Of a stretch of 39,278 bases of DNA, positions 4,508 through 30,446 are shown piece by piece; position 1 is the first letter of the stretch, and each line of letters begins with the position of its first letter. This DNA is from a virus. The position numbers and the translations under genes are program-made. A model generated the notes under the pieces. It was not told where the DNA came from and ran no database searches. It was given only the letters and a program-made list of their open reading frames with translations. Location: IMG/VR virus record IMGVR_UViG_3300020160_000219, positions 1 to 39,278 of that record; one strand, 5' to 3'.

Positions 4508-5548
4508 TTAAGCTGGACCAACTAAACGAACACCCGCAAACACGTCACGAATGGTTGAGGCTACACGCTTTTCGCCAAAGAATGTAATAAAGCCAGCCTG
4601 AGTTTGCTCAAGTAGTTGAATATTCATTAATTCATTATCAGCAATAGATACAAAACGTTCCCATTCAGCAAGATAAACGGGATACTTACCAGCGCCCGTT
4701 ACATCCATATAAGGGTTTTCGCAAACTGGATGACCAAAGATATACACTACCGCACCGCCGTCAGAATCGCCGACCTCAAGGAAGTTATTGGCAGAAGTCG
4801 AGGCTTTTAATTTACGCAACGCCATAACTGTGCTTGGGTGCATCATCCAGCAAGTTGTAGGCTTACGCTTATATTGTGCTGGTAAAGCTCCCATTAAATT
4901 AGCAAGATCATCATAAACAACTGCTGTATTGGCGGCTTGAGCTACTTGTAAAACCGTGTGTAGGCCGTTTGTGATAGCAGAGCCATTAGAGCCAAAGGCG
5001 GCGGCAGAAGTCGAGCCAGCGTATTGGTTTAAGCCACGCAAGCCGCTTGTTGCGCCATAGTTAACTGTTGTAGAACCAGTTTGATCGTTGTTAAACATCA
5101 TAGAAAGCGCCTCTTGTTGCGCAAACTCTAATGCCATGTCTAAAACGATTGTTTCGTTAAGCAAATTAACGTCTGACAACACGGCTGTTCTTACAGGCAC
5201 GGTTGCGTTAATTGATCGAACTGGGAGTTGCCAAAAAGCAACAGATTCGTTACCTAAATTAGTTTTAATTCCATAACCCCAAGGATTATCTGAGCCGCTT
5301 TGAATAAGTGTAGCGTTACCCTGTTTTACTACAAAAGCCTCATCTGAGCCGATTGTAGGAATTACTCTTGCGCCCGCCATACGGATTGGGTTAGCCATAC
5401 GCAACGCCGCAAAGGCATCATCGTATATAACACGACCACCAACACCACTACCTGAGCCTGTGAGTGCGCTGGCTTCGTTTAAATTTACTGTAGCCTTGCC
5501 CTCAAGCATGGCAGTTTTTACTGCTTCAAGTAATAGATTTGTGGTCAT
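4508..5548 (-). CDS. Second HK97-fold capsid protein paralogue, without scaffold domain
   Basis: This 346-residue protein is clearly paralogous to the upstream capsid protein. Both carry EASALTGSG(A/S)GVGGR, the phrases NNDQT and GLRGLNQY, and a terminal GFITF(Y/F)GEKR followed by a conserved tail. Only about 22 residues precede the EASALTGSG landmark, so the long scaffold-like delta domain is absent. The ATG at 5548 follows GGA; an in-frame TTG at 5560 would add four residues and is less likely. A strong terminator separates it from the first capsid gene, suggesting lower dosage. It may be a minor shell, vertex or accessory subunit, or a second shell type; the sequence does not decide. Confidence 0.85.
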   Translation of the reverse strand: MTTNLLLEAVKTAMLEGKATVNLNEASALTGSGSGVGGRVIYDDAFAALRMANPIRMAGARVIPTIGSDEAFVVKQGNATLIQSGSDNPWGYGIKTNLGNESVAFWQLPVRSINATVPVRTAVLSDVNLLNETIVLDMALEFAQQEALSMMFNNDQTGSTTVNYGATSGLRGLNQYAGSTSAAAFGSNGSAITNGLHTVLQVAQAANTAVVYDDLANLMGALPAQYKRKPTTCWMMHPSTVMALRKLKASTSANNFLEVGDSDGGAVVYIFGHPVCENPYMDVTGAGKYPVYLAEWERFVSIADNELMNIQLLEQTQAGFITFFGEKRVASTIRDVFAGVRLVGPA

Positions 5549-5568
5549 TTTAAATTCCAAAAAAAGTT

Positions 5569-5594
5569 AAAAAAGCGGGGGATTTCTCCCCCAC
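5569..5594 (-). terminator. Intrinsic terminator between the two capsid genes
   Basis: On the minus strand GTGGGGGA-GAAA-TCCCCCGC forms an 8-bp stem (one G-U pair) with a GAAA tetraloop, followed by six Ts. It begins a few bases after the stop of the first capsid gene at 5600. It would make the first capsid transcript more abundant than that of the paralogue. Confidence 0.9.
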
Positions 5595-5599
5595 TTCTA

Positions 5600-6973
5600 T
5601 CAATCTCCAGCAGTTGCTGTTGAGCGATAACGGATGATTGAGAATGGATCGACTACGCTGGTGCATAGACGCTTCTCGCCGTAGAAAGTAATGAAGCCAG
5701 GAGCTGTCTGATCGTAACGGCGCAAGATCATGTTCAAACGATCCACGATTGTGTGACCTTTTTGGAAGTCACCAAAATACATCGGGAATAGGTTAAGCTT
5801 GCTTGCAACGCCAGCATAAGTTGGTGTGTCAAGATACTTATTGACTACAACATCAAAGCCGAGCATACGACCAACAATGCCGTCTACTTCTAAAGGACCC
5901 ATACGCTCAAATACTGGTGTACCGTTGTCATCTACTAAGCCACGAATAGCGGCAAGCATGATTGGGTTAACAATAATTTTTGCAGTTGGTGTCCAATACT
6001 GCTGTGGCAAGCTGTAAACAAAATTAACGATGTCTTGGAAGACTACTTTGTTAGTTAGCTGTCCAGCAGTTGTGCCATCACCGTTAGTAGTTAACTGGTC
6101 ATACGTAGCAATATCTGACAAACCGCTAGATGAGCCAGTACCGCTATTGCCATACCCAGCACCGCTAATTGCGCCGCCTTTATAAACAGCCGCCGCACCG
6201 CCGTACTGATTTAAACCACGCAAGCCGTTTGTGCCGCCGTAAGCTGGAGTGTCAAAGTCAACGTAAGCTGTCTGATCGTTATTTTGGATCATAGACAATG
6301 CTTCTGCTTGGCTAAATTCAGCCAACATATCGGAAACAACGTTAGCTTCTAAGCCGTCAATATCGTCAAGAGCCGCTGTGCGGATTGGAAATTGAACGTT
6401 TAGGTCTTGGAGAGTTAACTGCCAAATATTTGTGTCAACGGTTGTGCCAGCGTTGTTGTTATTGATTGCATAACCCCATGCCGCACCTTGGTTGCCAGTT
6501 TTAGCACGAAACTGATAGGTTGAGCCATCAGTAGCTACTTGACGTGACACGCCACGCATTGGGTTTAACAAACGCAATGCAGTAAATACTGGATCGTAAG
6601 CTGTACGACCACCAACGCCTGCGCCTGAGCCTGTTAATGCAGATGCTTCCTTCATGTAAGCGTCATACTGACTTTCGCTTTCGAACATCTTGATTTCTTT
6701 TTCTACACGGTTACCCGATTTGTAGAAATCACGGATTTGCTCTTTAACCATACGGTTAACTTCTTGACCTACTGATTTATAAGTCTTGACAGTTGGAGTA
6801 GAGCCGATTTCAGCTAAACGGGCTTCGATTACAGCCAGCTTCTCTTGAGTTTCGGTTTTAACAGCTTCAATCTTTTCGTTTACAGAAGTTTCTACTGAAG
6901 TTTTTACTTCTTCGATTTTGACGGATTGATTTGCTTCCATCTCATCTAACTTTGCAATGATTTGCTCTGACAT
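5600..6973 (-). CDS. Major capsid protein, HK97 family, with N-terminal scaffold (delta) domain
   Basis: This is a 457-residue protein. Residues 1 to about 60 are a charged coiled coil (K/E/V-rich), and up to about residue 108 it resembles the delta scaffolding domain that is removed by the prohead protease. The HK97 shell domain follows from about EASALTGSGAGVGG, with NNDQTAYVDF, GLRGLNQYGG and a C-terminal GFITFYGEKR. A Gly/Ser-rich insertion near residues 265-290 is absent from the paralogue. The ATG at 6973 follows AAGGA with good spacing. It is next to the protease and followed by a strong terminator, as expected of the main shell gene. Confidence 0.93.
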   Translation of the reverse strand: MSEQIIAKLDEMEANQSVKIEEVKTSVETSVNEKIEAVKTETQEKLAVIEARLAEIGSTPTVKTYKSVGQEVNRMVKEQIRDFYKSGNRVEKEIKMFESESQYDAYMKEASALTGSGAGVGGRTAYDPVFTALRLLNPMRGVSRQVATDGSTYQFRAKTGNQGAAWGYAINNNNAGTTVDTNIWQLTLQDLNVQFPIRTAALDDIDGLEANVVSDMLAEFSQAEALSMIQNNDQTAYVDFDTPAYGGTNGLRGLNQYGGAAAVYKGGAISGAGYGNSGTGSSSGLSDIATYDQLTTNGDGTTAGQLTNKVVFQDIVNFVYSLPQQYWTPTAKIIVNPIMLAAIRGLVDDNGTPVFERMGPLEVDGIVGRMLGFDVVVNKYLDTPTYAGVASKLNLFPMYFGDFQKGHTIVDRLNMILRRYDQTAPGFITFYGEKRLCTSVVDPFSIIRYRSTATAGD

Positions 6974-9352: not shown

Positions 9353-11020
9353 CTAAAAACTTCTAAATCCATAGCTAGAACTGACGAAAGGATGATCTAA
9401 AGAACAGTGCATAGCGATAATCATGGCAATTATGCCATCGACCTTGGCAGATTTGTCAGCCTCGTTCTTTCTGATCTTAATATTTCCGTTAACATCCTCA
9501 TAACATTCAGCGTTTCCTAGTTGCCAACTAACAAAAGGGTTGCCATCATGTTTAATTTGCTTATTGAGTATCAGCTTCTCCACTTGCTTGGAAGGATTGT
9601 TCAATACCGCCATGCCTTGTCCGACCTTTTTAACGGGAACGCCGACCTCGTAACACCGAGCCACCACGCTTGCCGCATTATAGGCATCATACCCAGCCTC
9701 TTTGAGCATGGGGTACTTTGTGGATTCGCTAATAATGTAATCACTAACTTCCCGATCATCAATTACGTTGCCTTGGGTTAAATGCAGTATTCCGCTTTTC
9801 CTAGCTTCGTCAAAGATGCTTAGATAGTGTTTCGGCACAAACTCAAGCCCTTCTTCGGGTAGAAAAAATTTCCACTTTGCCTCATAATCAGTTTCGCCGA
9901 ATCGCTTTAGAGTGCAAACAGCGTTCAAGTCACGGGTTGACGCTAAATCGAAACCGATGAAAACAGCTTCGGGTTCACGTTCTTCTGTGATTCGGCACTC
10001 AGGCGCATCCCAGTATTGACGGTCTAGCCATGCAGAATTGGCGCTGACGTATACGTTTAAGGTCTTGCACAAAAACTCATTTAAAGCGGCGGGCTTGTTC
10101 TTAGCCTCCTCAGCACGTTGGTGAATGGCGCTGTCAAATACACTTATACCGTGCATTGGGTTAGCTTTAGCCCATGTTGCTGGGTCTTTCCAGTCATCTT
10201 GCAAGTCTAAGCCATACAGCAGTCCAAACCAGCGGGGGTTATCCGTAGCTGTGCCGTGCAACATATTTTCGACCATTTGCATATCTTCATAGAACTTGGT
10301 GTCCTTGGTAAAGGATGCTGTCGTAATATAGATGCGTAAAGGGTTTTGACGTGCGACCATGCCTGAGTGCAGAACCTCGATAGAGTTACGGTCTGTGATC
10401 TGTGCCGCCTCGTCAATAATGGCGCATGAGGGGTTTTTACCGTCACCCGTCTTTTTGGTATCTCGACTGAGCGCCTTAAACATCGACTGGCTATCTCCAG
10501 CCTTGCGTATTTGGTATTTTGATACATTAAACAGCTTTTGTAGGTCTGACGGCATATTCTCTACAAACCCTAAAGCCGCATCAAACACAATAGAAGCTTG
10601 TTCACGGCTGGTTGCTAGTGTGAATACCTCAGCGCCCGCCTCTCCGCAAATAAGCTCATATAGAGCGATTACAGCAGTCAGCGTAGACTTTCCCGCTTTA
10701 CGGGGAATGAACACAATAACGTCTGACACCATACGGTGCGAATGGTCTTTTTTGCTACGGAATCCATATATGGCGCAGATCAGTAGGATTTGGAACGGCT
10801 CAAGGACAATCGACTCTCCCGCCTGTGGACCTTTGGTGTGCTTTAGCGATTCCGCAAACGATAAAACGTGTTCTACGTAATCTGCATCAAAATACCATTC
10901 CCAGTCCTTGCGCTCAATCTGGTCGAGAAAACGCTGGCAAGCTAATCGAACATTAGCGCAAACATTAATCTCACCTTTCGCTACTTGACTGGCGTAAAGA
11001 ACGCCGTCTTGATGATTCAC
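9353..11020 (-). CDS. terL: Terminase large subunit
   Basis: This 555-residue packaging motor has an N-terminal ATPase with Walker A PRKAGKST at residues 106-113 and Walker B CAIIDEAA at 199-206. The C-terminal RNase H-like nuclease starts near residue 355 with FIGFDLASTRDLNAV, whose Asp is the first metal ligand. The ATG overlaps the small subunit stop by four bases. The length and motif set fit the Terminase_1 (HK97/P27-partner) lineage. It drives DNA into the prohead and cuts the concatemer. Confidence 0.95.
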   Translation of the reverse strand: MNHQDGVLYASQVAKGEINVCANVRLACQRFLDQIERKDWEWYFDADYVEHVLSFAESLKHTKGPQAGESIVLEPFQILLICAIYGFRSKKDHSHRMVSDVIVFIPRKAGKSTLTAVIALYELICGEAGAEVFTLATSREQASIVFDAALGFVENMPSDLQKLFNVSKYQIRKAGDSQSMFKALSRDTKKTGDGKNPSCAIIDEAAQITDRNSIEVLHSGMVARQNPLRIYITTASFTKDTKFYEDMQMVENMLHGTATDNPRWFGLLYGLDLQDDWKDPATWAKANPMHGISVFDSAIHQRAEEAKNKPAALNEFLCKTLNVYVSANSAWLDRQYWDAPECRITEEREPEAVFIGFDLASTRDLNAVCTLKRFGETDYEAKWKFFLPEEGLEFVPKHYLSIFDEARKSGILHLTQGNVIDDREVSDYIISESTKYPMLKEAGYDAYNAASVVARCYEVGVPVKKVGQGMAVLNNPSKQVEKLILNKQIKHDGNPFVSWQLGNAECYEDVNGNIKIRKNEADKSAKVDGIIAMIIAMHCSLDHPFVSSSYGFRSF

Positions 11021-11481
11021 CCTTTAGGACCTCTCAGGAATTTCGATACTGGGCTGTCTTCTTCTTGAGCGCCGTCACTAAGGCGGCTTCTAGGGGTTAG
11101 CCCTAGCTCGTTCATTAATTGAATAATGGTCTTGAGCGTATTTTGCCTTACCGTCAAATAAGGGTTTGGTCCAATAGTTTTGCCATTGTTGAACTTAGTA
11201 ACCACGGGCGTTTTTGCTAGGGTCTTTTTGCACTCAATATAGGTGTCAATTTGTTCGGCTAAATATGCCAGCGTGTGCTTATCTTGATCTGAGCCAATCC
11301 CGTAAACCTTATACAAAAAATCAGCGGTTTCAGCAATAAATGTAGAGCGATCCCATGCGTCAGGATTATCTAACCATTCAGCTTTTGGAATACGGCACTT
11401 TATGGACTTAGGAATGTCAACGCCTTGGTTCATTCCCTTTGATCCGTTGACTACGTGTAACTCAGGAGGCAATTTGTTCAT
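11017..11481 (-). CDS. terS: Terminase small subunit, P27 family
   Basis: This 154-residue protein carries the P27-type arrangement: an N-terminal PP.L....GNP-like basic stretch, a PKAEWLDNPDAWDR helix, a central helical segment and a C-terminal TVRQNTLKTIIQLMNELGLTP. That last segment is the family's best-known signature. It recognises the packaging site and feeds DNA to TerL, to which it is coupled by a four-base overlap. The ribosome site before the ATG at 11481 is weak. The parS-like palindrome lies 38 bp upstream. Confidence 0.9.
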   Translation of the reverse strand: MNKLPPELHVVNGSKGMNQGVDIPKSIKCRIPKAEWLDNPDAWDRSTFIAETADFLYKVYGIGSDQDKHTLAYLAEQIDTYIECKKTLAKTPVVTKFNNGKTIGPNPYLTVRQNTLKTIIQLMNELGLTPRSRLSDGAQEEDSPVSKFLRGPKG

Positions 11482-11685: not shown

Positions 11686-12114
11686 CTATTTCGATGAAGG
11701 GCAGACCCTTGCATAGTCTTCAATAATTAAATCATTATGACCATAGTGTTTGATGATGCCCCTTTGCTCATACCATGTCTTCTCACTATGGCATGACGCA
11801 CATAGAGATTGGAATAGGTTGTGATAGAAGGCGCTATCACTTATGGTAGCCCAAGGAAAGACGTGGTCTACGTGTAGCGCTGAGGTGACCCTGCCCTTCT
11901 CCATACAGGCGGCACATAGTGGGTGTAGGCTTAACTGCCTAGCCCTAATAGAACGCCAGTATGAGGTCTGATACATAGCGTTATGCTCAGCCCTAGCCTT
12001 CGTAATGATTAGTGTGTTCTTGCCGCCATGCTCTAAGCAGTAGTTATTATAGCGTGACCGTTCAGCCCTACATCCTAATGATGCGCACTTAGTAGATGTA
12101 GGGATTGAGGGCAT
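11686..12114 (-). CDS. HNH endonuclease (terminase-associated)
   Basis: This 142-residue protein has an N-terminal zinc-binding pattern (C-x4-C...C..H) around residues 11-34. A C-terminal HNH domain follows with LCAACMEKGRVTSALHVDHVFPW, then N at FYHNLFQSLCASCHSEKT. The two CxxC pairs, the HVDHV histidines and the later Asn/His are all present. HNH proteins next to HK97-type terminase genes are needed for specific cutting at the packaging site. Its ATG overlaps the upstream stop by one base. Confidence 0.9.
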   Translation of the reverse strand: MPSIPTSTKCASLGCRAERSRYNNYCLEHGGKNTLIITKARAEHNAMYQTSYWRSIRARQLSLHPLCAACMEKGRVTSALHVDHVFPWATISDSAFYHNLFQSLCASCHSEKTWYEQRGIIKHYGHNDLIIEDYARVCPSSK

Positions 12115-12482
12115 TACTTTAGATAGCGCAACTTATAGAGGGTAGAGTCAATAAGGCTTACGATAGTGTCTACTTCGTTCTGTATATTAGTGTCTTGTGG
12201 AAACCAGCCTGATCGCCTACTAGCCTCAACATACCCACTTATCTGCTCAAGATAGGCAACGGGGTCATTAGTAGGCAGATCATAAGATGCGGAATAACCG
12301 CTTAATAAGCCATATTTACCTTGTATAACCTCAGTTAGACTATCTACTAAGTCATTTAATTCATTGTAAAACTTGCCTAAAGCCTTGTGCTGGCTATATG
12401 ACGTGCTTTGGAAATGTAAGATATGTGCGTTTGTGACGCAATGCAATAGGTTTTGAATAAATGCTGATAGATTGGTTTCCAT
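12114..12482 (-). CDS. DUF5856-like helical protein (ferritin/Dps-like fold suspected)
   Basis: This 122-residue, mostly helical protein contains THxLHxQ-like NAHILHFQSTSYSQHKALG followed by FYNELNDLVDSLTEVIQGKYG. The pattern is familiar from small phage proteins of the DUF5856 type, with a Dps-like four-helix layout. Their role is unknown. It lies between the ParB-domain gene and the HNH gene. The ATG has a GGGGG ribosome site. The family call is from memory of the motif and has not been tested. Confidence 0.6.
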   Translation of the reverse strand: METNLSAFIQNLLHCVTNAHILHFQSTSYSQHKALGKFYNELNDLVDSLTEVIQGKYGLLSGYSASYDLPTNDPVAYLEQISGYVEASRRSGWFPQDTNIQNEVDTIVSLIDSTLYKLRYLK

Positions 12483-12506
12483 GATTCCCCCGTTAGTGGC
12501 TCTATT

Positions 12507-13085
12507 CTAGCTGTCATCCCTAGCTCTAGCAATCTCGTTGCGATCAACGTGGAAAGCCTCGGTGCAATGTGGGCAAATAACCTCAACATAAGCAGATTGT
12601 TGAACCTTTGAGCGATCCTCAAACGTCATCTGCATCTTAGTTTCGACCTTGCCAATGTTCTCAGCCGTAGGGTTTTTAAAGTTAGTAGCGCCAGCAGTAT
12701 CCGAAATAAGCTCATCTAGGCTGATTGTAGGAAAATAAATCTCCATATCCTCGACAGCCTCAATCTCCCTTAATTCGGGGATTAATCGGTTCATATCCCA
12801 GCTAGATAATTCGCTGGTTTTATTGTCAGCAATACGGTATTCCTTGATTTCTTGTGCTGTAAGGTCTGTTTTGACTACGCACGGCACGTCAGTAACGCCT
12901 AGCTCTTGAAGGGCTTTATACCGTGTATGACCCGCAATAATGACATTTTCGCCATCAACTACAATAGGGTAATTAAAACCATAGTCCTTAATTGACTGTT
13001 TAACTGCGGCAACAGCATCCTCGTTGTTACGTGGGTTACGCCAGTAAGGCTTAATGTCCGTAAGTTTAAGCGTTGTTATTTGCAT
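12507..13085 (-). CDS. ParB/Srx-domain protein with C-terminal zinc ribbon-like CxxC
   Basis: This 192-residue protein starts with a ParB N-terminal (sulfiredoxin-like) domain. LTDIKPYWRNPRNNEDAVAAV contains the N-P-R-x-N entry, and VIIAGHTRYKALQELG supplies the GHTR phosphate-binding motif near residues 50-62. A linker leads to a C-terminal CPHC. No ParB helix-turn-helix domain is present, so it is not a partition protein. Stand-alone ParB domains in phages act as nucleotide-binding or nuclease modules and are often linked to DNA-modifying enzymes. It follows the ibrB-like gene with a 20-base overlap. Confidence 0.8.
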   Translation of the reverse strand: MQITTLKLTDIKPYWRNPRNNEDAVAAVKQSIKDYGFNYPIVVDGENVIIAGHTRYKALQELGVTDVPCVVKTDLTAQEIKEYRIADNKTSELSSWDMNRLIPELREIEAVEDMEIYFPTISLDELISDTAGATNFKNPTAENIGKVETKMQMTFEDRSKVQQSAYVEVICPHCTEAFHVDRNEIARARDDS

Positions 13086-13740
13086 CTGATTGTTCCTTTT
13101 CGTATTGTTTGCGTAACTCTATTTGGCGCTTAGTTTCCCACGCTTTCTTATATTCCACGTTTTCGAACAGCTTACTAAAGCCTGTAACGTGCTTTAAACG
13201 CACTAACTCGTCAGGCTCAACGCCTAACTCTGCGCAAATAGCCTCGTCTGCCCAGCCATTCTCAAGCATTTGGAACACCATATTAGCCATGCCGGACACA
13301 GAATGTTTGCCTCTAGCCCGATTGTGCCGCACAGTAGACGCCATACGGTCATTTATGGACTTGTCAATAACTACGACTGGCAAAAGCCCATTGTTGCGCT
13401 CGGCAATGTCCTTGTTTAACTTCATTGTCGTATAACGGTGAAACCCATCTACGATAACGTATTGGTCTTGCTGATCGTCATATACCGTTACGACTGGCTG
13501 AGTATAGCCGTCATGTAGGATTGACACATACAGCAAACGCATCTCGTTTTTGGCTACAGAATTTGGGTTATAGTCGTTTGCGTGAACTTTCTCAATCGGC
13601 ACCCATCTTACAAAGTTAACAGGCTGGGAATTTTGAGGGGATATGCTATGCAAAAACGCCCGTAAATCCTCTATGTAATCAATTTTAGCTTGCGTATCTA
13701 ACGCATCAAGCTGGTTCTGTATTTGTTGTTTTATCTGCAT
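13066..13740 (-). CDS. ibrB: IbrB-like ParB-domain protein
   Basis: This 224-residue protein has the IbrB layout. It opens with WVPIEKVHANDYNPNSVAKNE, followed by DGYTQPVVTVYDDQQDQY and the ParB motif VDGFHRYTTM. A second half follows with MASTVRHNRARGKHSV and GWADEAICAELGVEPDELVRL. The start at 13740 is chosen because GGAGAG lies nine bases upstream; a GTG at 13761 would add seven residues. It overlaps the IbrA-like gene by 35 bases. The IbrA/IbrB pair was described in E. coli as affecting expression of eib genes; the molecular activity is unknown. Confidence 0.88.
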   Translation of the reverse strand: MQIKQQIQNQLDALDTQAKIDYIEDLRAFLHSISPQNSQPVNFVRWVPIEKVHANDYNPNSVAKNEMRLLYVSILHDGYTQPVVTVYDDQQDQYVIVDGFHRYTTMKLNKDIAERNNGLLPVVVIDKSINDRMASTVRHNRARGKHSVSGMANMVFQMLENGWADEAICAELGVEPDELVRLKHVTGFSKLFENVEYKKAWETKRQIELRKQYEKEQSDANNNA

Positions 13741-14848
13741 TCTTTTTGGCTCTCCAAGCACGTTTTAGGTCAATATTTTCGGGTCTACGCTCAAAATTAC
13801 CCAGTTTTACAAACTCCCAGTCATTCGTAAGAATGGCATTAATGTGTTCTTTATACATTTTGTCGGGGATTGCATGAGCATACATTTCGTCATGCCTAGC
13901 AAAAATGGTCTTAAACCCAGCATTCCATTCGGGGTTTTCTATTAGCTTTTCTAGTAGATAATCACGGTATTCGCCCCATGTGGCAAACATAAACGGTAAC
14001 GACCTTGGAAAATAATCATCTTTGCCTAGCTTGCCAGCCATATCTATGCCGGCAATCCGTTGCGTAAGGCGCTGATATGTGTCGCCCTCAATCTCTTGCA
14101 TATAGAACAACGTTCCCACGGCGGTTTCGTGGTGAACATTGGAAACCCGCATATTTTGTAACTTTACCCCGTAGTTGTATTGAGCGTCATAAATACGGTT
14201 ATACGCCCATTCGTTATCGTGTATTGCTTTCCACACATCCATATACGACCAGTCATATATTGGATAGAAAGTATAGTGTTCGTTGGTTTTGTCTAAGATT
14301 TTTCCCCATGTTCTTCCCTTGTAGGTAACGTCATGGGTAAGCGCCATTGCTCTTGTTGGTGATTCCTCAGTCCGAACTCCCGCAATGTAGCAAGTCTTGA
14401 TGCCAGCGTATTCTTTTTTGATAATTGCTGGAAAAAGTTCTGCAAATCTTTCTGTTCCATAAGTGTTTTCTTTAATGCTGTATGGCACTCTAGGGCGCAT
14501 CCAACGGTGTTCTTCTTGTTCATCCCAGCACATAAGCCAATGATCCGTAGTGCTGGTAGCGTTAAATAGCTTAATTGGCATTTGATACCACTTAGCTTCA
14601 ACGTCAGGATTTTCCATGATTTCGGTAATAGTATCAATCGTGGCTTCCCATTCGGCTTCTTGATCGACAAATAAGCATTTAAGCGGCAGACGATTCTTTT
14701 CCCGTGCGACTTGCAAGGCTAGGTTATAGACCACGGTGCTGTCTTTCCCGCCTGATACGCCGACAATAATGTTTGGAAATTCATCAAATAGCCAGCGAAT
14801 ACGCTCTAAACCGGCATCGTAAACGGTCTTATTGCCGTAAATTTTCAT
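13706..14848 (-). CDS. ibrA: IbrA-like PAPS reductase-family protein (DUF3440)
   Basis: This 380-residue protein has the PP-loop SGGKDST at residues 32-38 (about MKIYGNKT as start), the mark of PAPS reductase / N-type ATP pyrophosphatase enzymes. The downstream IAGVRTEESPTR and FYPIYDWSYMDVWKAI match the DUF3440/IbrA branch. These enzymes probably activate a substrate by adenylation; the substrate is unknown. The ATG at 14848 overlaps the GNAT stop (ATGA); a start at 14938 would run inside the GNAT gene and is rejected. It is one of five or six coupled genes of an accessory cluster. Confidence 0.9.
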   Translation of the reverse strand: MKIYGNKTVYDAGLERIRWLFDEFPNIIVGVSGGKDSTVVYNLALQVAREKNRLPLKCLFVDQEAEWEATIDTITEIMENPDVEAKWYQMPIKLFNATSTTDHWLMCWDEQEEHRWMRPRVPYSIKENTYGTERFAELFPAIIKKEYAGIKTCYIAGVRTEESPTRAMALTHDVTYKGRTWGKILDKTNEHYTFYPIYDWSYMDVWKAIHDNEWAYNRIYDAQYNYGVKLQNMRVSNVHHETAVGTLFYMQEIEGDTYQRLTQRIAGIDMAGKLGKDDYFPRSLPFMFATWGEYRDYLLEKLIENPEWNAGFKTIFARHDEMYAHAIPDKMYKEHINAILTNDWEFVKLGNFERRPENIDLKRAWRAKKNADKTTNTEPA

Positions 14849-15210
14849 AGTTTTAGCTGGATTTGAGTCCAGTCCTTGTATTCTTTTGTGATTTTTGCGC
14901 CCATTTTGATATACAAGGGCAACGACATTGCTGAGCAATTAGCCTCAACTAACTTAATTCCACGTTCCCGCACAGCAATCATGCTGTATCGGAATAACTC
15001 TTTAAAGTAACCTTTGTGCCGGTAATCAGGCAAAACATAATGGTTCTTAAATACAGCTTTTTTGGAATACCAAAGGATGCCGGTAAAAGCGACCAATACG
15101 CCATCTACAAATTTACCGTAATACTCAGTAGAGTTACAAAACGATAGTCCTAGCTTTTCTGTTTCGGCAAGGTAAGGCTGTATATCTCTGTCGGTAATGG
15201 TGCGTATCAT
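14845..15210 (-). CDS. GNAT-family N-acetyltransferase in IbrA/IbrB cluster
   Basis: This 121-residue protein has the GNAT acetyl-CoA motif VLPDYRHKGYFKELFRYSM near residues 58-76 (V-x-P-x-x-R-x-K-G) and the C-terminal pattern ALPLYIKMGAK-like SMSLPLYIKMGAKI. It is short but complete for a small GNAT. The four-base overlaps with both the glycosyltransferase and the IbrA-like gene point to a joint pathway. Acetyl acceptor unknown. GNAT folds also include the Mu Mom DNA-modifying enzyme, but Mom-specific features are not evident. Confidence 0.85.
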   Translation of the reverse strand: MIRTITDRDIQPYLAETEKLGLSFCNSTEYYGKFVDGVLVAFTGILWYSKKAVFKNHYVLPDYRHKGYFKELFRYSMIAVRERGIKLVEANCSAMSLPLYIKMGAKITKEYKDWTQIQLKL

Positions 15211-15755
15211 ACGGGGTCTTTAAACGTTAGGCTTTGCCGTTTACTGCTACGGCGTGGGTCAATCATACTCTTTGCAACACGATGATCTACAAGGCTTGGA
15301 ACGTGTATCCAATACTTTTCTTTGCCCGCTTTTAGGTAATCGCAAATCATGCTGTCTGTGCCGGTAGGGTGCTTTTCTTTATCTTCCCAAAACTGGTAAT
15401 AGTCATGAATTGCTGTTGAGTAGCCTGCTGGCAGGTAAAAGCATTGGTTCATTAAGTAGTTATTGTCGTAGCGACTCCCTTTTGTCAGGTCATCTTTACG
15501 CATAGAAAAGAACTGTATGACCTCGTTGGGGCGCTCATGGACTGCACCAATTAGCTTTGTCATAAAGTTTTGGGTCAGAATAATGTCTTCTTCCATGTGA
15601 ACGCACGGGTCATCTCCAGCCATGCGCATAGCATCAAGAAACGTGTCCATAGCGTTGCGGGTCTTATCAAAGCACCATTCGGCATTAGGCAAATTGGTGC
15701 GTAGGTATTTAATAAACTCGGTGCGCTCAGGCACGGCACGAATAATAATTTTCAC
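15207..15755 (-). CDS. Small glycosyltransferase-like protein (GT-A type)
   Basis: This 182-residue protein has a short Rossmann-like start (MKIIIRAVPERTEF) and a MEEDIILTQNF segment near residues 54-64. In that segment acidic residues replace the DxD metal site of GT-A enzymes. The late PSLVDHRVAKSMI...RRSS..RQS motif is common in phage glycosyltransferases. Sugar donor and acceptor are unknown. It overlaps neighbours on both sides by four bases. It could modify DNA, a small metabolite or a virion protein; the cluster context favours joint action with the GNAT and IbrA-like proteins. Confidence 0.7.
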   Translation of the reverse strand: MKIIIRAVPERTEFIKYLRTNLPNAEWCFDKTRNAMDTFLDAMRMAGDDPCVHMEEDIILTQNFMTKLIGAVHERPNEVIQFFSMRKDDLTKGSRYDNNYLMNQCFYLPAGYSTAIHDYYQFWEDKEKHPTGTDSMICDYLKAGKEKYWIHVPSLVDHRVAKSMIDPRRSSKRQSLTFKDPV

Positions 15756-16039
15756 AAAAGCGCCCTATTGATGATTTTAGTAATCTCAAGCGGGTTACCC
15801 ATAGTCCAATAGGTGTAAGGCGCCATGTCGTAATAAACGTAGCCTTTGCGGAAAAACTTACGCATTTTGCCGTGTTTGCGTATATATAAAACTGCTCTGT
15901 AAAACTCTACAAGATCACGGCATTTGTCTTTGACTACGTAACAATGGGGCATTTGCGGCATTGTTTTAGCAAAAGTCCATTCATGAGCCTTTACAAACTC
16001 ATGAAACTCTTGTTCTGTCATATCTTTTTCGTCAAACAT
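15752..16039 (-). CDS. Conserved phage protein of unknown function at head of the accessory cluster
   Basis: This 95-residue protein contains the phrases MTEQEFHEFVKAHEWTFAKTMPQMPH and VVKDKCRD, and ends with YYDMAPYTYWTMG and PLEITKIINRA. The pattern resembles small phage proteins found beside glycosyltransferase and PAPS-reductase genes, but no function is known to me. It is the first gene after the terminator at 16077-16104 and is coupled to the glycosyltransferase gene by a four-base overlap. Confidence 0.7.
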   Translation of the reverse strand: MFDEKDMTEQEFHEFVKAHEWTFAKTMPQMPHCYVVKDKCRDLVEFYRAVLYIRKHGKMRKFFRKGYVYYDMAPYTYWTMGNPLEITKIINRALL

Positions 16040-16076
16040 ATTACTATTATGGCACTTTTATTTTACGTTTGTAAAC

Positions 16077-16104
16077 AAAAAAATCCCCAGTTTTTAGGCT
16101 GGGG
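16077..16104 (-). terminator. Intrinsic terminator after rusA
   Basis: On the minus strand CCCCAG-CCTAAAAA-CTGGGG is followed by A and seven Ts. It lies five bases after the rusA stop and separates the recombination/nuclease genes from the IbrA/IbrB accessory cluster, which may thus be a distinct transcription unit or depend on read-through. Confidence 0.85.
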
Positions 16105-16109
16105 AAAAG

Positions 16110-25367: not shown

Positions 25368-25805
25368 TCATGTCGTGTGCAAAAATTTTATCACTTCTTG
25401 AGGAGATACAAAAGCATCATTTTTGTGCTCAGTAAAATCCCACCATAAAAATTGGTTTTCGGCTAAATATACTCTATCTTTAAGTAAATTTGTGTTCTCT
25501 GAGTGTCCGTATATTAGCGGATCGGATACTGACCATAGGGCTATTCCCTGTTTACCCTCAGCCCAAGCTAGATGCTGGAAAAAACTATCCACCCCAATCC
25601 ATGTGCGGCACTCACTAATTAAGGTTTTAAGCTCGAATAACGGTAAGTTTTTCCTAAAATCAGGCACTAATTGATCCTCGCCATCTATCCCTACTTGCAC
25701 AATTGGCTCATCAATTAAAGCAATAAGCTCTTTCCAATAAGGATAATTCTTAGGGTTTTGTTTGCCGTTTTGTAGTTTTTTAGCGTATGGATGAATAACT
25801 ATCAT
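25368..25805 (-). CDS. Glycosyltransferase family 9, C-terminal domain as a separate protein
   Basis: This 145-residue protein starts VIHPYAKKLQNG and carries CRTWIGVDSFFQHLAWAEGKQGIALW. That is the GT9 (ADP-heptose:LPS heptosyltransferase-like) donor-binding half, with the typical G-x-D-S-x-x-x-H-x-A core. It ends WWDFTEHKNDAFVSPQEV. The N-terminal GT9 half is at the end of the preceding gene. The four-base overlap keeps the halves coupled but in different frames. Probably they form a two-chain enzyme. Confidence 0.8.
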   Translation of the reverse strand: MIVIHPYAKKLQNGKQNPKNYPYWKELIALIDEPIVQVGIDGEDQLVPDFRKNLPLFELKTLISECRTWIGVDSFFQHLAWAEGKQGIALWSVSDPLIYGHSENTNLLKDRVYLAENQFLWWDFTEHKNDAFVSPQEVIKFLHTT

Positions 25806-27370
25806 AGGTAAAGCTTTCGGTAAGCATCCTCTAGGCTACCAGTCCAGCCCCAGTCAGCCATTTTTTTGTATATATTCCATTGATCTAAATTGCCGAACAA
25901 AGCATGGGCATCAGCAATGGACTTGCAAGGTATGACTTCGGGATAGCACCCAAACACAATAGCGTTAGATATATCTGGCAGAACCTTACTAAACACAATA
26001 TGATCGCCAAGCCCAGAATCAAGAACCACAATCGTTTTTTCAGCCAGCCCCAAGATATTCCGATATATTTTTTCATCGTGCTCAAACATTTCTTGCTTTG
26101 CGCCATCACGGATACCCCCTTGTGGGTTCTTTAAGTGCCAAGTAATAGCATTGGGAACGACTAATAGCTTGTATCCTTTACGGTGTAACCCGTGCGAAAA
26201 CAGCGTTTCTTCCCTGTGCGCAACCTTAGATAGCCCAAGATTAAAGTCATGCACCCCAGCACGGTATATAAAAGTTGAGTAAAGATGTTCGACTGGCTTT
26301 GGTTCTTTAATCATGCCCCATTGAATATTAGGCTCAACGTCTATGTTCTCAATTAGCCCAGTAGATTCTAGGAACGTAGGCGTGTTAGGCGGGTTAATAA
26401 CTGAGCCGCCGACTGCGCCAATGCTGTCATTACAGTAATGGGATAAGACTTCTAGCACGTTAGGCTCTGGAATGGCATCATCATCGCACCGCCATACCCA
26501 TGTATAGCCCGTTTGCGCCGCCATTGTATTAGCCGTTTGGTGTATGTGATGCTGACCTTTTTTGCCCGCAAAGAGCCATTCCCACTCTATTTTTTTGCTA
26601 TTGAGTAACCAAAATAGGTGCTGATATAAGAATTCTTTTCTCATATCCAGCGGCTCATCATTGTCATCAAAAATAATTAGCTTATCTGGCTTCTTGGTTT
26701 GATTGGCAATAGCTTCAATTACTAAGGGTAGAGTAGTAAAGTATCTGCCCTTAGTCGGTAGACAGCACAGTATCTTTTCTTTGTCCCACTTGCCCATGAG
26801 CAAATTAAATTGATTTGTAGGGGATACGGGAATCATGTATTGGGTAATTAGCCCAAACTCATTCGTATATTCAAAATCAAAACCCTTAAAATGGGATTCG
26901 TTTAAGCCATGTAGCTTATGATGCTCACCCCAGAAACCTTTGGGTTCATTGTGCGGGGTAGTAAATAGTAAGCGCTTGCAATGCTTTTTGAGCTTCTCCA
27001 GCACCTCTAAACCATTGTCCATGTGCTCAATAATTTCAAAAGCAATAATCGTATCGTATTGTTCTAGCTCGATTTGATTAATGTTGCCTTGAATAAAATT
27101 ACAGCTTATGTAATTTAAAAATTTATTCCAGTTTTGTTCTTTGGCAACTTCAATAATTGTAGGGTCGTAATCTAACCCCGTATATTGAACATGAGAAGGC
27201 ATAAATTGTATGCCGTAGCCCGTTGAGCAACCAATATCTAGGATTTTTGTGCCTAAAATATGTTTAGCCGCCCATTGGTATCGAGCAGATTCCCTAGCGT
27301 GGACTAGATCACCTTTTAGGAATACTGCTCTTTCGTAGTTGTTTGTTAGTCTTGTCCTATATTCATCCAT
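25802..27370 (-). CDS. Methyltransferase / GT2 glycosyltransferase / GT9 N-domain fusion
   Basis: This 522-residue protein has three parts. Residues about 30-200 are a class I SAM methyltransferase: LDIGCSTGYG motif I, YTGLDYDP, IIAFEIIEHMDNG. Residues about 200-430 are a GT-A family 2 glycosyltransferase (ILCCLPTKGRYFTT, WVWRCDDDAIPEPNVL with the DDD metal site). Residues about 435-522 are the N-half of a GT9 enzyme (VVLDSGLGDHIVFSKVLP, ending GSLEDAYRKLYL). Lying between the collagen-like fibre and the lysis genes, it may decorate the fibre or the host surface glycan; the substrate is unknown. Confidence 0.85.
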   Translation of the reverse strand: MDEYRTRLTNNYERAVFLKGDLVHARESARYQWAAKHILGTKILDIGCSTGYGIQFMPSHVQYTGLDYDPTIIEVAKEQNWNKFLNYISCNFIQGNINQIELEQYDTIIAFEIIEHMDNGLEVLEKLKKHCKRLLFTTPHNEPKGFWGEHHKLHGLNESHFKGFDFEYTNEFGLITQYMIPVSPTNQFNLLMGKWDKEKILCCLPTKGRYFTTLPLVIEAIANQTKKPDKLIIFDDNDEPLDMRKEFLYQHLFWLLNSKKIEWEWLFAGKKGQHHIHQTANTMAAQTGYTWVWRCDDDAIPEPNVLEVLSHYCNDSIGAVGGSVINPPNTPTFLESTGLIENIDVEPNIQWGMIKEPKPVEHLYSTFIYRAGVHDFNLGLSKVAHREETLFSHGLHRKGYKLLVVPNAITWHLKNPQGGIRDGAKQEMFEHDEKIYRNILGLAEKTIVVLDSGLGDHIVFSKVLPDISNAIVFGCYPEVIPCKSIADAHALFGNLDQWNIYKKMADWGWTGSLEDAYRKLYL

Positions 27371-27389: not shown

Positions 27390-30300
27390 TTAAACAATCA
27401 CCCATACCGCATCCGTAGCTACTGTTACTGTAAAGCCCGTACTAATAGTTATTGGTCCAGCCGATAATCCATTGGTGTTTGCCAAAATGGTAATATTTTC
27501 TGCTATTGAATTTGAATTATAAGCAATAGCTTTTGTTGCGGCAGTTCCATAAAACTGACCGCCACTAGGTGCAGCTGCCCAAGATGGTAAACCGCCAGCA
27601 ACCGTCAACACTTGACCAGTTGAGCCAATGCCTAACCTTGCGGCAACAGTAGGAGATGATTCATACAGAATATCTCCAGTTGTAGTCATTGGGTTTAGCG
27701 CATTAAACGCCGCAGTAGCCGTAGTATTCCCTGTTCCACCGTTAGCAATAGATACTGGCAACGCTACGCCTAGCCCGCTGTATCCGCTAAATCCGCTAAA
27801 GCCCGATGTTCCTGTTGTTCCTGTTGCGCCAGTTGCGCCAGAAAATCCACTTTGCCCTGAGAACCCTGAGATACCACTAAATCCTGATGTGCCAGTTGCG
27901 CCAGTTGCGCCTGAGTAACCGCTAAGTCCAGATGCCCCCGTTGCTCCCGTTGCCCCAGAGTAACCACTAAATCCTGACGAACCGTTTGTGCCGTTAATGC
28001 CAGAAAATCCGCTTGTGCCTGAGAATCCAGATATGCCGCTAAAACCAGAAGCGCCAGTTGCCCCTGTTGCTCCGCTGTATCCACTTAATCCAGAAGCGCC
28101 TGTTGCGCCGTTAATTCCAGAGTAGCCGCTGATACCCGAAGCGCCGTTTGTGCCGTTAGTACCAGAAAAACCAGATTGACCAGAGAAACCGCTAATGCCT
28201 GAGAATCCAGAAAAACCGCTTGCGCCAACTGCACCAGAAAAACCGCTAAGACCGCTTGCCCCAGTAGCGCCGCTGTATCCGCTAAAACCAGATGCCCCAG
28301 TAGCGCCATTAGTGCCGCTAATGCCAGAGAAGCCGCTAATTCCTGAGAAGCCAGACCAGCCGCTAATTCCAGAACCAGAATACCCTGAGATACCGCTAAA
28401 CCCAGATGTGCCAGAGAATCCACTAATACCGCTGTATCCTGAGTAACCGCTTGCGCCGCTATACCCTGATTGGGTATACATTACCTGAGTTGCAGTAAGA
28501 ATAACTGATGGAGTTCTAGGATAAGAACCAGTTGCCGCTAATGTTTCAATGCTTACGCTTGCATTTGCAGTTTGCCAATAAAGTTGAAATACATCATTAG
28601 CCGCAACATTTAAAACATAATTTACAGTTAATATTTCAGATGAAAATGCTGAACCTTGTTTATCAGGCACATCAAAGTGGCTATTGCTATCGGCTAAATT
28701 AGAACCATTCTTCCTTAACCAAACTTGTATAGAACCATTGGCAGTTGAGGTATTGGTAAGTTGCAATGAATAAGTAATGCTAAATGTTCCAGCAACATTA
28801 AATCGCCATTGATTTGCAGAAATTAAAACAACATTGTTGCTTCCATCCGTTGTATTAATGTTAATTGCTGTTGGAGTATTTATAGTTGCAGTTTGGTTTG
28901 TGGTGTCATAGAAAGAACCATAAGCACCTACCGCACCGCCTAAACCAGCAACGCCAGAATACCCAGAGAATCCGCTAATCCCGCTGTATCCACTAATCCC
29001 AGAGAAACCTGATATACCAGAGAACCCAGAAATCCCTGAGTATCCAGAGTAACCCGACACTCCGCTACCTGAGTAGCCTGAGATGCCTGAGAATCCAGAG
29101 TATCCCGATTGTCCTGAGAACCCAGAATACCCTGATATTCCTGAGAAACTTGAGTATCCACTTATTCCTGAGTAACCTGAGAATCCAGAGATTCCGCTAA
29201 ATCCGCTGTAACCGCTTACGCCGCTACCAGAATATCCGCTGATCCCAGAGAATCCAGAAATGCCTGAGAACCCAGAATACCCGCTAATCCCCGACCAGCC
29301 GCTTATACCGCTGTAACCCGACCAGCCACTTATTCCAGAATTGCCTGAGTACCCTGAGATGCCACTAAAGCCGCTGATCCCGCTGTAACCCGAATACCCG
29401 CTTATTCCAGAGAACCCGCTAATACCTGACCAGCCAGAGATTCCGCTAAACCCTGACCATCCCGATATACCCGAATACCCGCTGTAACCTGAGATACCAG
29501 AGAAGCCACTTATGCCAGAGAACCCGCTGTAACCGCTTATGCCTGACCAGCCTGAGATACCAGAGAATCCGCTTATCCCAGAATAGCCTGAGTAACCACT
29601 AATGCCTGAGAAACCACTATATCCGCTGATGCCAGAGAACCCTGACCAGCCAGATATGCCTGACCAGCCGCTGATGCCAGAGTAACCGCTGTACCCAGAA
29701 ATGCCGCTAAAGCCAGATATACCGCTAAATCCAGAATAGCCTGAGTATCCGCTAAAGCTAGAGTAGCCAGATATGCCTGAGTACCCAGAATAGCCGCTTA
29801 TCCCAGAAAACCCTGAGATGCCGCTATACCCTGAGAATCCTGAGATACCGCTGTAACCGCTATACCCGCTTACTCCGCTACCAGAATAACCTGAGAATCC
29901 AGAAAAACCTGAGTAACCACTTACTCCGTTCACAACAGCAAAGATTACGTCTTGATTATTAGCAAAGTTAGTTGTGCCTGTTCCAGCAGAGCTAATAAGG
30001 TCTACTGGAAATGTCCAATACGTTCCTAAATTTGTTGGTGTGCCAGTTATAACCCATGTCTGCCGATTAGCGCTATTCGCTTGATCTTGAATAATAAATT
30101 GTTCTGTTGTAGTTAATATTTCTAAAAAAGCACTAATGTCTACGCCATTGTCAGCAATACTACTGACGTTGATTTGTGTTGCGTTTATTTGCGTAGCGTC
30201 ATTCCATAGCAAATACTCTGCCGTAGGGTCACCGCTTAAAGCATTTGTTTTGGCTTTGTAAAAATAATAGGTTGTTGATACGCCACTATATCCAGAATAG

Positions 30301-30446
30301 CCGCTGTAACCAGAATAACCTGATATGCCAGAAAAGCCTGATGGACCAATGACTCCACGATCAATAGCAATTACTTGATTAGGAGTTGGCGTTACGGCAA
30401 TGTTTACATTATTTTGGTCTATGACCGTGACTTTCATATTTGCCAT
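27390..30446 (-). CDS. Collagen-like tail fibre with G-X-S triplets
   Basis: This 1018-residue protein is built of three collagen-like blocks separated by globular domains. Residues 34-56, about 172-505 and about 657-890 are Gly-X-Ser triplets with X mostly Tyr, Phe, Ile or Trp, partly GAT/GAS near the end. Domain 57-170 is beta-rich. Domain 505-657 looks like a C1q/TNF-type jelly roll, probably a trimerisation unit. The C-terminus has an IANGGTG fibre motif and a final SAGPITISTGFTVTV...WVIV module. Proline is nearly absent, which is unusual for collagen. Probably a trimeric side or tail fibre for host binding. Confidence 0.85.
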   Translation of the reverse strand: MANMKVTVIDQNNVNIAVTPTPNQVIAIDRGVIGPSGFSGISGYSGYSGYSGYSGVSTTYYFYKAKTNALSGDPTAEYLLWNDATQINATQINVSSIADNGVDISAFLEILTTTEQFIIQDQANSANRQTWVITGTPTNLGTYWTFPVDLISSAGTGTTNFANNQDVIFAVVNGVSGYSGFSGFSGYSGSGVSGYSGYSGISGFSGYSGISGFSGISGYSGYSGISGYSSFSGYSGYSGFSGISGFSGISGYSGYSGISGWSGISGWSGFSGISGYSGFSGISGYSGYSGISGFSGISGWSGISGYSGFSGISGFSGISGYSGYSGISGWSGFSGISGWSGISGFSGISGYSGYSGISGFSGISGYSGNSGISGWSGYSGISGWSGISGYSGFSGISGFSGISGYSGSGVSGYSGFSGISGFSGYSGISGYSSFSGISGYSGFSGQSGYSGFSGISGYSGSGVSGYSGYSGISGFSGISGFSGISGYSGISGFSGYSGVAGLGGAVGAYGSFYDTTNQTATINTPTAININTTDGSNNVVLISANQWRFNVAGTFSITYSLQLTNTSTANGSIQVWLRKNGSNLADSNSHFDVPDKQGSAFSSEILTVNYVLNVAANDVFQLYWQTANASVSIETLAATGSYPRTPSVILTATQVMYTQSGYSGASGYSGYSGISGFSGTSGFSGISGYSGSGISGWSGFSGISGFSGISGTNGATGASGFSGYSGATGASGLSGFSGAVGASGFSGFSGISGFSGQSGFSGTNGTNGASGISGYSGINGATGASGLSGYSGATGATGASGFSGISGFSGTSGFSGINGTNGSSGFSGYSGATGATGASGLSGYSGATGATGTSGFSGISGFSGQSGFSGATGATGTTGTSGFSGFSGYSGLGVALPVSIANGGTGNTTATAAFNALNPMTTTGDILYESSPTVAARLGIGSTGQVLTVAGGLPSWAAAPSGGQFYGTAATKAIAYNSNSIAENITILANTNGLSAGPITISTGFTVTVATDAVWVIV
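27775..28475 (-). repeat. Coding repeat, third collagen-like block
   Basis: This block contains Gly-X-Ser and Gly-Ala-Thr/Ser triplets in 9-base multiples, imperfect at DNA level. Codon choice varies (gly/ser synonymous codons), which indicates selection for the protein pattern more than recent expansion. Confidence 0.85.
28930..29935 (-). repeat. Coding repeat, main collagen-like block
   Basis: About 110 Gly-X-Ser triplets in a row, X rotating among Tyr, Phe, Ile, Trp and rarely Gln, Asn, Ser. Local units such as GISGFSG and GISGYSG recur. DNA identity between units is moderate, so it is an old repeat maintained at protein level. Confidence 0.85.

Follow-up and report, generated by a model that had tools for sequence, protein, structure and literature searches.

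A conserved, modular phage gene cassette around IbrA and IbrB as a candidate system for nucleic-acid modification

Which function unites a series of overlapping phage genes that code for a PP-loop enzyme, two ParB-domain proteins, a glycosyltransferase and an acetyltransferase-like protein, all read towards the packaging genes? The question is raised by positions 12507-16039, on the minus strand, of IMG/VR virus record IMGVR_UViG_3300020160_000219, whose 39,278 bases of siphophage-like type are here called the window. The reading favoured here, and a reasonably probable one, is that these genes represent one version of a widespread modular phage cassette for nucleic-acid modification, most probably DNA-base hypermodification before packaging. 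The core of this system would consist of IbrA, IbrB, ParB and a small protein named U95, and its probable target would be DNA. An earlier note on this DNA had proposed a modification island. Its genomic part holds, in the form of a conserved cassette with co-occurring genes, and swappable enzymes point to nucleic-acid modification; corrections concern the place of DUF5856 and HNH and the chemistry of IbrA.

Seven open reading frames without internal stops are present at 12114-16039 on the minus strand, and family searches uphold the identities given earlier to the first six. These are a conserved unknown of 95 residues, U95 (15752..16039), a GT-A-like glycosyltransferase (GT; 15207..15755), a GNAT N-acetyltransferase-like protein of 121 residues (14845..15210; Pfam Acetyltransf_1, 7.2e-6), the PP-loop ATP-pyrophosphatase IbrA (13706..14848), the ParB/Srx-domain protein IbrB with its DGFHR motif (13066..13740) and a second ParB-domain protein, ParB2, with a zinc-ribbon-like C-terminal CxxC end (12507..13085). 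Six to seven genes had been described as joined by overlaps of 1-35 bases. This stands for six, which overlap by 4 bases (U95/GT, GT/GNAT and GNAT/IbrA), 35 bases (IbrA/IbrB) and 20 bases (IbrB/ParB2), but not for the seventh, a DUF5856 gene, which is uncoupled from ParB2 because a gap of 24 bases separates them. In related loci, the median gap at the 272 junctions where family members meet is -4 bases, and 96% of these gaps are at most 10 bases, which is more overlap coupling than expected by chance. The IbrA reading frame as listed begins at a TTG (14938), which makes it too long. Its start is most likely the ATG at 14848, giving 380 residues, since several relatives hold stops in the extra upstream part and this ATG overlaps the GNAT stop. 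IbrB was taken from the ATG at 13740, the listed start being too early.

The evidence that carries the cassette as a unit comes from its relatives. Close relatives keep the order U95-GT-GNAT-IbrA-IbrB-ParB2 before HNH-TerS-TerL, and in more distant phages GT and IbrA each retain ~50-65% identity (IbrA 36% in one locus), with packaging genes that are barely similar or unrelated. The same gene order occurs in the unrelated 98-kb Microbacterium phage Hendrix, where a 92-residue gene, a GT, a second GT, a methyltransferase, a GNAT and then IbrA occupy the right end. The left end of that genome holds IbrB, two ParB genes, gp4 and TerL. Microbacterium phage Leaf, which like Hendrix has the full cassette, and Streptococcus and Flavobacterium phages are further cultured carriers, and Mycobacterium phage Athena has the core only. 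Among 50,697 phage records megablast found 0 matches to the region, and a scan of genome contigs with IbrA confirmed no relative.

Two profile scans yielded 129 non-redundant loci, and a census covered the 92 of them that contain IbrA and extend 2 kb or more upstream. The earlier note had made co-occurrence beyond the IbrA/IbrB pair the test of its proposal, and such co-occurrence is found in many unrelated phages: ParB2 is present in 65 of the 92 loci and U95 in 48, and most loci have swappable enzymes. IbrB occurs in 86, GT in 28, GNAT in 26, methylase-like DPPW/MYHSAL proteins in 20, SNF2 in 10, proteins with an HxD motif in nine, S-adenosylmethionine (AdoMet) decarboxylase and cupin in eight each and a second GT type in five, the whole forming 28 gene combinations. 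By p values that ignore shared ancestry, U95 and ParB2 are associated (46 loci with both, p 2e-8), HxD goes with GT (8/9 loci, p 2e-4) and SNF2 excludes both U95 (p 3e-4) and ParB2 (p 1e-6).

As the census families had been picked from neighbourhoods, the viral collection was also searched in reverse, with one family at a time. IbrA was reached in 58 of 61 non-redundant loci with U95 (95-98%), in 47 of 48 with HxD (98%), in 10 of 11 with GT, where the remaining contig stops 136 bases after the GT, and in 46 of 60 with DPPW, where several misses are cut by contig ends. GT accompanies HxD in 42 of its 48 loci; among the 60 DPPW loci GT is found in five only and AdoMet decarboxylase in 11. These scans bear directly on a trivial explanation, namely a mere positional hot spot at which unrelated accessory genes collect before terminase genes. 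The region before the terminase is indeed variable in these phages; a hot spot, however, would give many loci without IbrA, for which reason this explanation is strongly disfavoured and considered very improbable. That the genes form a conserved, mobile cassette is thus strongly supported.

IbrA shows the domain succession of its family, a PAPS_reduct-type PP-loop domain (PF01507, 2.3e-17) followed by DUF3440 (PF11922, 5.2e-6; 26.8 bits against a cut-off of 25). In an alignment of 93 IbrA sequences the PP-loop SGGKDS is invariant, and D62, E64, W108, G157, E162, R166, D199, D204, Y220 and R234 vary little or not at all; no cysteine is conserved across them, the best Cys column reaching 55/93. 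A single-sequence search against PDB gave 0 matches, and a profile search was needed. In the AlphaFold2 (AF2) model, with a predicted local distance difference test (pLDDT) score of 91.3, the PP-loop core lies near CysH, FAD synthase and CysD and the C-terminal part is helical. CysH is the nearest fold, and TilS and TtuA are also among the matches.

Could IbrA then be a phosphoadenosine phosphosulfate (PAPS) reductase, that is, a sulfur-related auxiliary metabolic gene (AMG), or might it, like DndC, insert sulfur into the DNA backbone? The PAPS_reduct score, the proximity of CysH and the match to PADLOC DndC models (5.2e-11) are what such an explanation would draw on, but it is hardly credible given the missing conserved Cys, whereas DndC has a distinctive Cys dyad (PMC10853773). 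The curated NCBIfam scores are also far under their cut-offs (34.4 bits against 290.4 for DndC, TIGR03183; 28.4 against 165.1 for cysH), and DndA, DndD and DndE were not identified among recurrent neighbours by clustering and family scans, which did not use each Dnd model. CysH, which has a conserved catalytic Cys near its C-terminal end that IbrA lacks, and DndC phosphorothioation were both rejected as assignments. IbrA keeps the ATP-pyrophosphatase motif but has no conserved Cys, so that it qualifies neither as PAPS reductase nor as sulfur enzyme of the DndC type. Alignment and model fit an adenylating-type PP-loop enzyme rather than a reductase or sulfur transferase; the PP-loop assignment of the earlier note is retained in this form, through the invariant motif and the fold, and without sulfur chemistry.

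A ParB-domain protein next to IbrA is the rule: IbrB lies within 3.5 kb of it in 86 of the census loci. IbrB matches ParB_N below the Pfam cut-off (5.6e-5) and the ParB-like phrog_2159 at 2.7e-77. As a single sequence it finds weak matches only in PDB, and a profile was needed; the profile reaches Noc/ParB, free serine kinase and SbnI, which makes both nucleoside triphosphate (NTP)-dependent DNA binding and phosphoryl transfer possible. In Mycobacterium phage Gaia, IbrB (L030:6608-7507) is annotated as an ectoine synthase/ParB fusion. ParB2 is matched by ParB_N (9.9e-9), phrog_620 (2.4e-49) and phrog_498, ParB-methyltransferase (2.3e-36), and resembles the ParB part of phage ParB-methyltransferase fusions. 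Partition was set aside as a function because no ParA is seen among the recurrent neighbours of the loci, parS being outside the search; the two ParB-domain genes sit in an enzyme operon.

The pair might instead act in regulation, IbrA and IbrB switching on phage or host genes while the other genes are separate morons. In several phages the pair is annotated as co-activators of prophage gene expression, following E. coli work as cited in PMC4541368, and in some phages it stands alone. Among these is Escherichia phage PhiR5_2 (L265, 1831-3644), in which neither decorator nor U95 accompanies the pair and antirepressor genes adjoin it; such solo pairs indicate that decorators are optional. Regulation alone explains neither the 4-base overlaps nor the linkage, seen from both sides, with U95, GT, HxD and methylase-like genes, and the enzyme motifs are invariant. 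It is judged improbable as the main function, although a DNA mark could itself alter expression, so that the two readings are compatible.

For U95, Pfam and PHROG searches gave no functional match. Its AF2 model (pLDDT 92.6) found no PDB match at E 0.001 or better and, in BFVD, one viral protein at E 7e-8; profiles of U95 and GT searched against PDB gave nothing meaningful. For U95 scans a closer subset was used, the full alignment being too diverse. A PADLOC match to SAVED_TM (7e-4) was dismissed as chance, since it spans just 47 residues. In relatives U95 is fused to class I methyltransferase, SET or AdoMet decarboxylase domains. The U95 domain weakly matches the N-terminal part of the Hendrix methyltransferase (22%, E 5e-4), and a U95-methyltransferase fusion is clear in other loci; a SET-like domain is fused to it in L083:6053-6763 and L043:2647-3378, each with an AdoMet-decarboxylase-like gene just upstream. 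One locus (L260) has U95 and no convincing IbrA in the DNA examined.

The remaining enzymes are putative decorators, and it is their exchange between loci that speaks to the substrate. GT has phrog_854 'glucosyltransferase' (1.7e-6) as its sole family match, a conserved acidic EDD region and a Hendrix homologue that is weakly GT25-like. In DPPW proteins the DPPW and DPxCGxG motifs follow each other as they do in beta-class amino-methylases, and matches to DNA methyltransferase models are weak. The HxD...H triad of HxD proteins is invariant and recalls Fe(II) dioxygenases, but no Pfam family matches these proteins; their place beside GT is what would be expected if a hydroxyl were installed and then glycosylated. 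AdoMet decarboxylase (PF02675, 3e-22) stands beside U95 or, in L134, is fused to it (L132:6708-7076, L095:1355-1732, L134:7327-8004 and five more loci), and its decarboxylated S-adenosylmethionine (SAM) may be a donor of aminopropyl groups. In a second architecture an SNF2-like helicase, IbrA, sometimes GNAT, and IbrB occur without U95 or ParB2 (L148, L156, L157, L167 and L175; also L035, L036 and L140). Cupin-like proteins of ~265 residues, encoded by separate genes beside IbrA in nine loci (L149, L150, L151 and L163 among them), may also belong to the core. The neighbours further include epimerase, cytidylyltransferase and SET-like proteins. The swapping of DPPW DNA-methylase-like, dioxygenase-like HxD, AdoMet decarboxylase and SNF2-like enzymes indicates nucleic-acid modification.

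The nucleic acid need not be DNA. The cassette might modify RNA such as tRNA, to evade anticodon nucleases or to tune translation, with IbrA activating a base carbonyl in the manner of TilS or thiolases and the decorators completing a hypermodified RNA base. tRNA is the classical substrate of PP-loop enzymes, the fold matches of IbrA include TilS and TtuA, and GNAT, GT and methyltransferase steps are known from RNA modification too. The ParB partners, SNF2-like helicases, DPPW DNA-methylase-like neighbours and the position directly before the terminase nevertheless fit DNA better, and tRNA genes beside the loci were noted in Hendrix alone, with no systematic tRNA search made; an RNA substrate is rated as unlikely. 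Even less likely is the decoration of a virion protein, of a surface glycan of phage or host, or of a small molecule. This would assign no clear role to ParB domains and DPPW methylase-like partners, and the cassette adjoins the terminase and not tail genes, even if glycans and proteins are often modified by enzymes such as the GT, GNAT, epimerase, cytidylyltransferase and SET-like partners, and a PP-loop sugar amidotransferase family exists, to which a weak WbuX match of IbrA refers.

With DNA as the favoured substrate, IbrA would consume ATP and adenylate the target base at an oxygen or carboxyl group, with release of pyrophosphate. IbrB and ParB2, as presumed NTP-binding ParB/Srx proteins, could keep the machinery on DNA or load it there, or else act by phosphate hydrolysis or transfer, and U95, as a core adaptor or enzyme, could couple the decorating enzymes with the activated base. 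In this phage, the glycosyltransferase would then add a sugar and GNAT an acyl group, a step for which methylase-like enzymes, a dioxygenase-like enzyme or AdoMet decarboxylase products may substitute in relatives. The product would be made before packaging, and the likely benefit is that phage DNA is shielded from restriction or other DNA-sensing defence.

Several points weigh against this mechanism. DNA as substrate is inferred from neighbour genes only, and RNA, proteins and glycans are likewise substrates of PP-loop, GT, GNAT and methyltransferase enzymes. IbrA/IbrB pairs without decorators exist, as in PhiR5_2, and 21 of the 92 loci have neither U95 nor any tallied decorator. No gene for the synthesis of a modified precursor nucleotide was identified among the window proteins searched. 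A ParB homologue by itself is no predictor of modified bases: Serratia phage eta has one and yet normal nucleosides (PMC3918226).

The DUF5856 gene (12114..12482, minus strand) keeps its family assignment (1.5e-20; also phrog_858, labelled 'starvation-inducible transcriptional regulator') and loses the island membership it had been given. It occurs in 5 of the 92 loci and at other positions, being upstream of U95 in the close relatives L003, L021 and L038. The HNH endonuclease gene (11686..12114, minus strand; HNH, 9.9e-8), which overlaps it by 1 base and belongs to the packaging block, occurs in 8 of 92. With positions that change, or absence from most loci, the census ruled out both as cassette members; they are passengers. 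The terminase small subunit (11017-11481) follows directly downstream of the cassette and HNH on the same strand, and the large subunit (9353-11020) comes next; a terminase-large-like gene is found within ~3.5 kb after the cassette in 57 loci.

The minus-strand reading order is thus RusA, terminator, U95, GT, GNAT, IbrA, IbrB, ParB2, DUF5856, HNH, TerS and TerL. The terminator between RusA and the cassette, behind which the genes had been placed earlier, is borne out as an intrinsic terminator-like hairpin (16084..16105, minus strand) of 7 pairs, 5 of them G-C, followed by 7 T, and reads TCCCCAGcctaaaaaCTGGGGA-TTTTTTT from 16105 to 16084. A promoter-like site ahead of U95 (16046..16075, minus strand; TTTACA-18-CATAAT, with TG before the second hexamer) is suggestive only, promoter-like matches in the window not exceeding those of shuffled sequence (12 found against 15.5 expected). 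Elsewhere the minus strand carries portal, TerL, TerS, protease, capsid, tape measure and tail genes, and the plus strand RecE-like exonuclease, Erf and SSB. A 522-residue protein with a methyltransferase-like N-terminal part (25802-27370, minus strand; phrog_22502, 1.3e-6) directly adjoins a collagen-like tail fibre gene of 1018 residues (27390-30446), and is perhaps a modifier of the tail fibre or of a glycan. Two adjacent genes at 4508-6973 on the minus strand (457 and 350 residues) each give a match to phrog_10, the major head protein family, so that two capsid-like proteins may be encoded.

Published labels for these genes include virulence-linked IbrAB (PMC4541368) and phage-plasmid markers (PMC4490671), and no description of the cassette was found in the literature searched, a collection that lacks preprints and the bulk of subscription papers. 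In a Psychrobacter phage, a PAPS_reduct gene has been called a sulfur-related AMG (PMC10434257). Viral cysH or PAPS reductase genes are named together with AMGs and sulfur in at least 25 papers; counts of such genes could be too high if they take in IbrA-type genes, which lack the cysteine, and viral PF01507 genes should not be called cysH without a cysteine check.

If the DNA reading is correct, phage genes filed as PAPS reductases, partition proteins or virulence co-activators would be the core of a common combinatorial DNA-modification system. IbrA and IbrB would gain a testable biochemical role, many candidate base-modifying enzymes would come to hand, with possible use of decarboxylated SAM among them, and the cassette would predict which phages should resist restriction. 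A bolder and distinctly more tentative proposal is a class of phage DNA-base chemistry unrecognised so far, in which a PP-loop enzyme and a ParB/Srx partner activate the base and modules attach sugars, acyl, methyl or aminopropyl groups. Sugars would come from GT with its dioxygenase-like partner, acyl groups from GNAT, and aminopropyl groups from decarboxylated SAM in versions where AdoMet decarboxylase accompanies U95 and methylase-like genes. In that case the DNA marks would differ between related phages and be exchangeable.

Known systems resemble the cassette in part. Dnd shares with it a pair of PP-loop (DndC) and ParB-superfamily (DndB) proteins, together with the weak DndC profile similarity of IbrA; it differs in that IbrA has no conserved Cys dyad and no DndA, D or E is seen among recurrent neighbours. 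Dpd 7-deazaguanine DNA modification also employs a ParB-like protein, the ATPase DpdB (PMC12839542). The cassette has a PP-loop enzyme and decorators instead, and neighbour family scans, which included no dedicated DpdA or DpdB query, named no DpdA/TGT or DpdC homologue. The CmoA/CmoX/CmoY system for 5-carboxymethylcytosine hypermodification in phages has ParB-domain neighbours of unknown role (PMC12783734), and likewise combines these with an AMP-forming activating enzyme and a methyltransferase-like enzyme. CmoY belongs to the asparagine-synthetase-type ligases and CmoX is a C5-methyltransferase, whereas IbrA is a PP-loop enzyme of PAPS_reduct/DUF3440 type; no CmoA, CmoX or CmoY homologue was among the named neighbour families in family searches without a dedicated query for them. 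E. coli and prophage IbrA/IbrB are the same PP-loop/DUF3440 and ParB pair, known in E. coli as prophage gene regulators according to work cited in PMC4541368, and the PhiR5_2 pair lacks U95, GT and GNAT. T-even-like 5-hydroxymethyl-pyrimidine hypermodification offers the parallel of one installed handle with interchangeable decorators, which recalls the dioxygenase-like gene with GT in a subset of cassettes (42/48); no hydroxymethylase or precursor kinase was identified in the cassette, which has an ATP-pyrophosphatase core instead. If the cassette does modify DNA, its activating enzyme would differ from those of the 5-hydroxymethyl, deazaguanine and CmoX routes.

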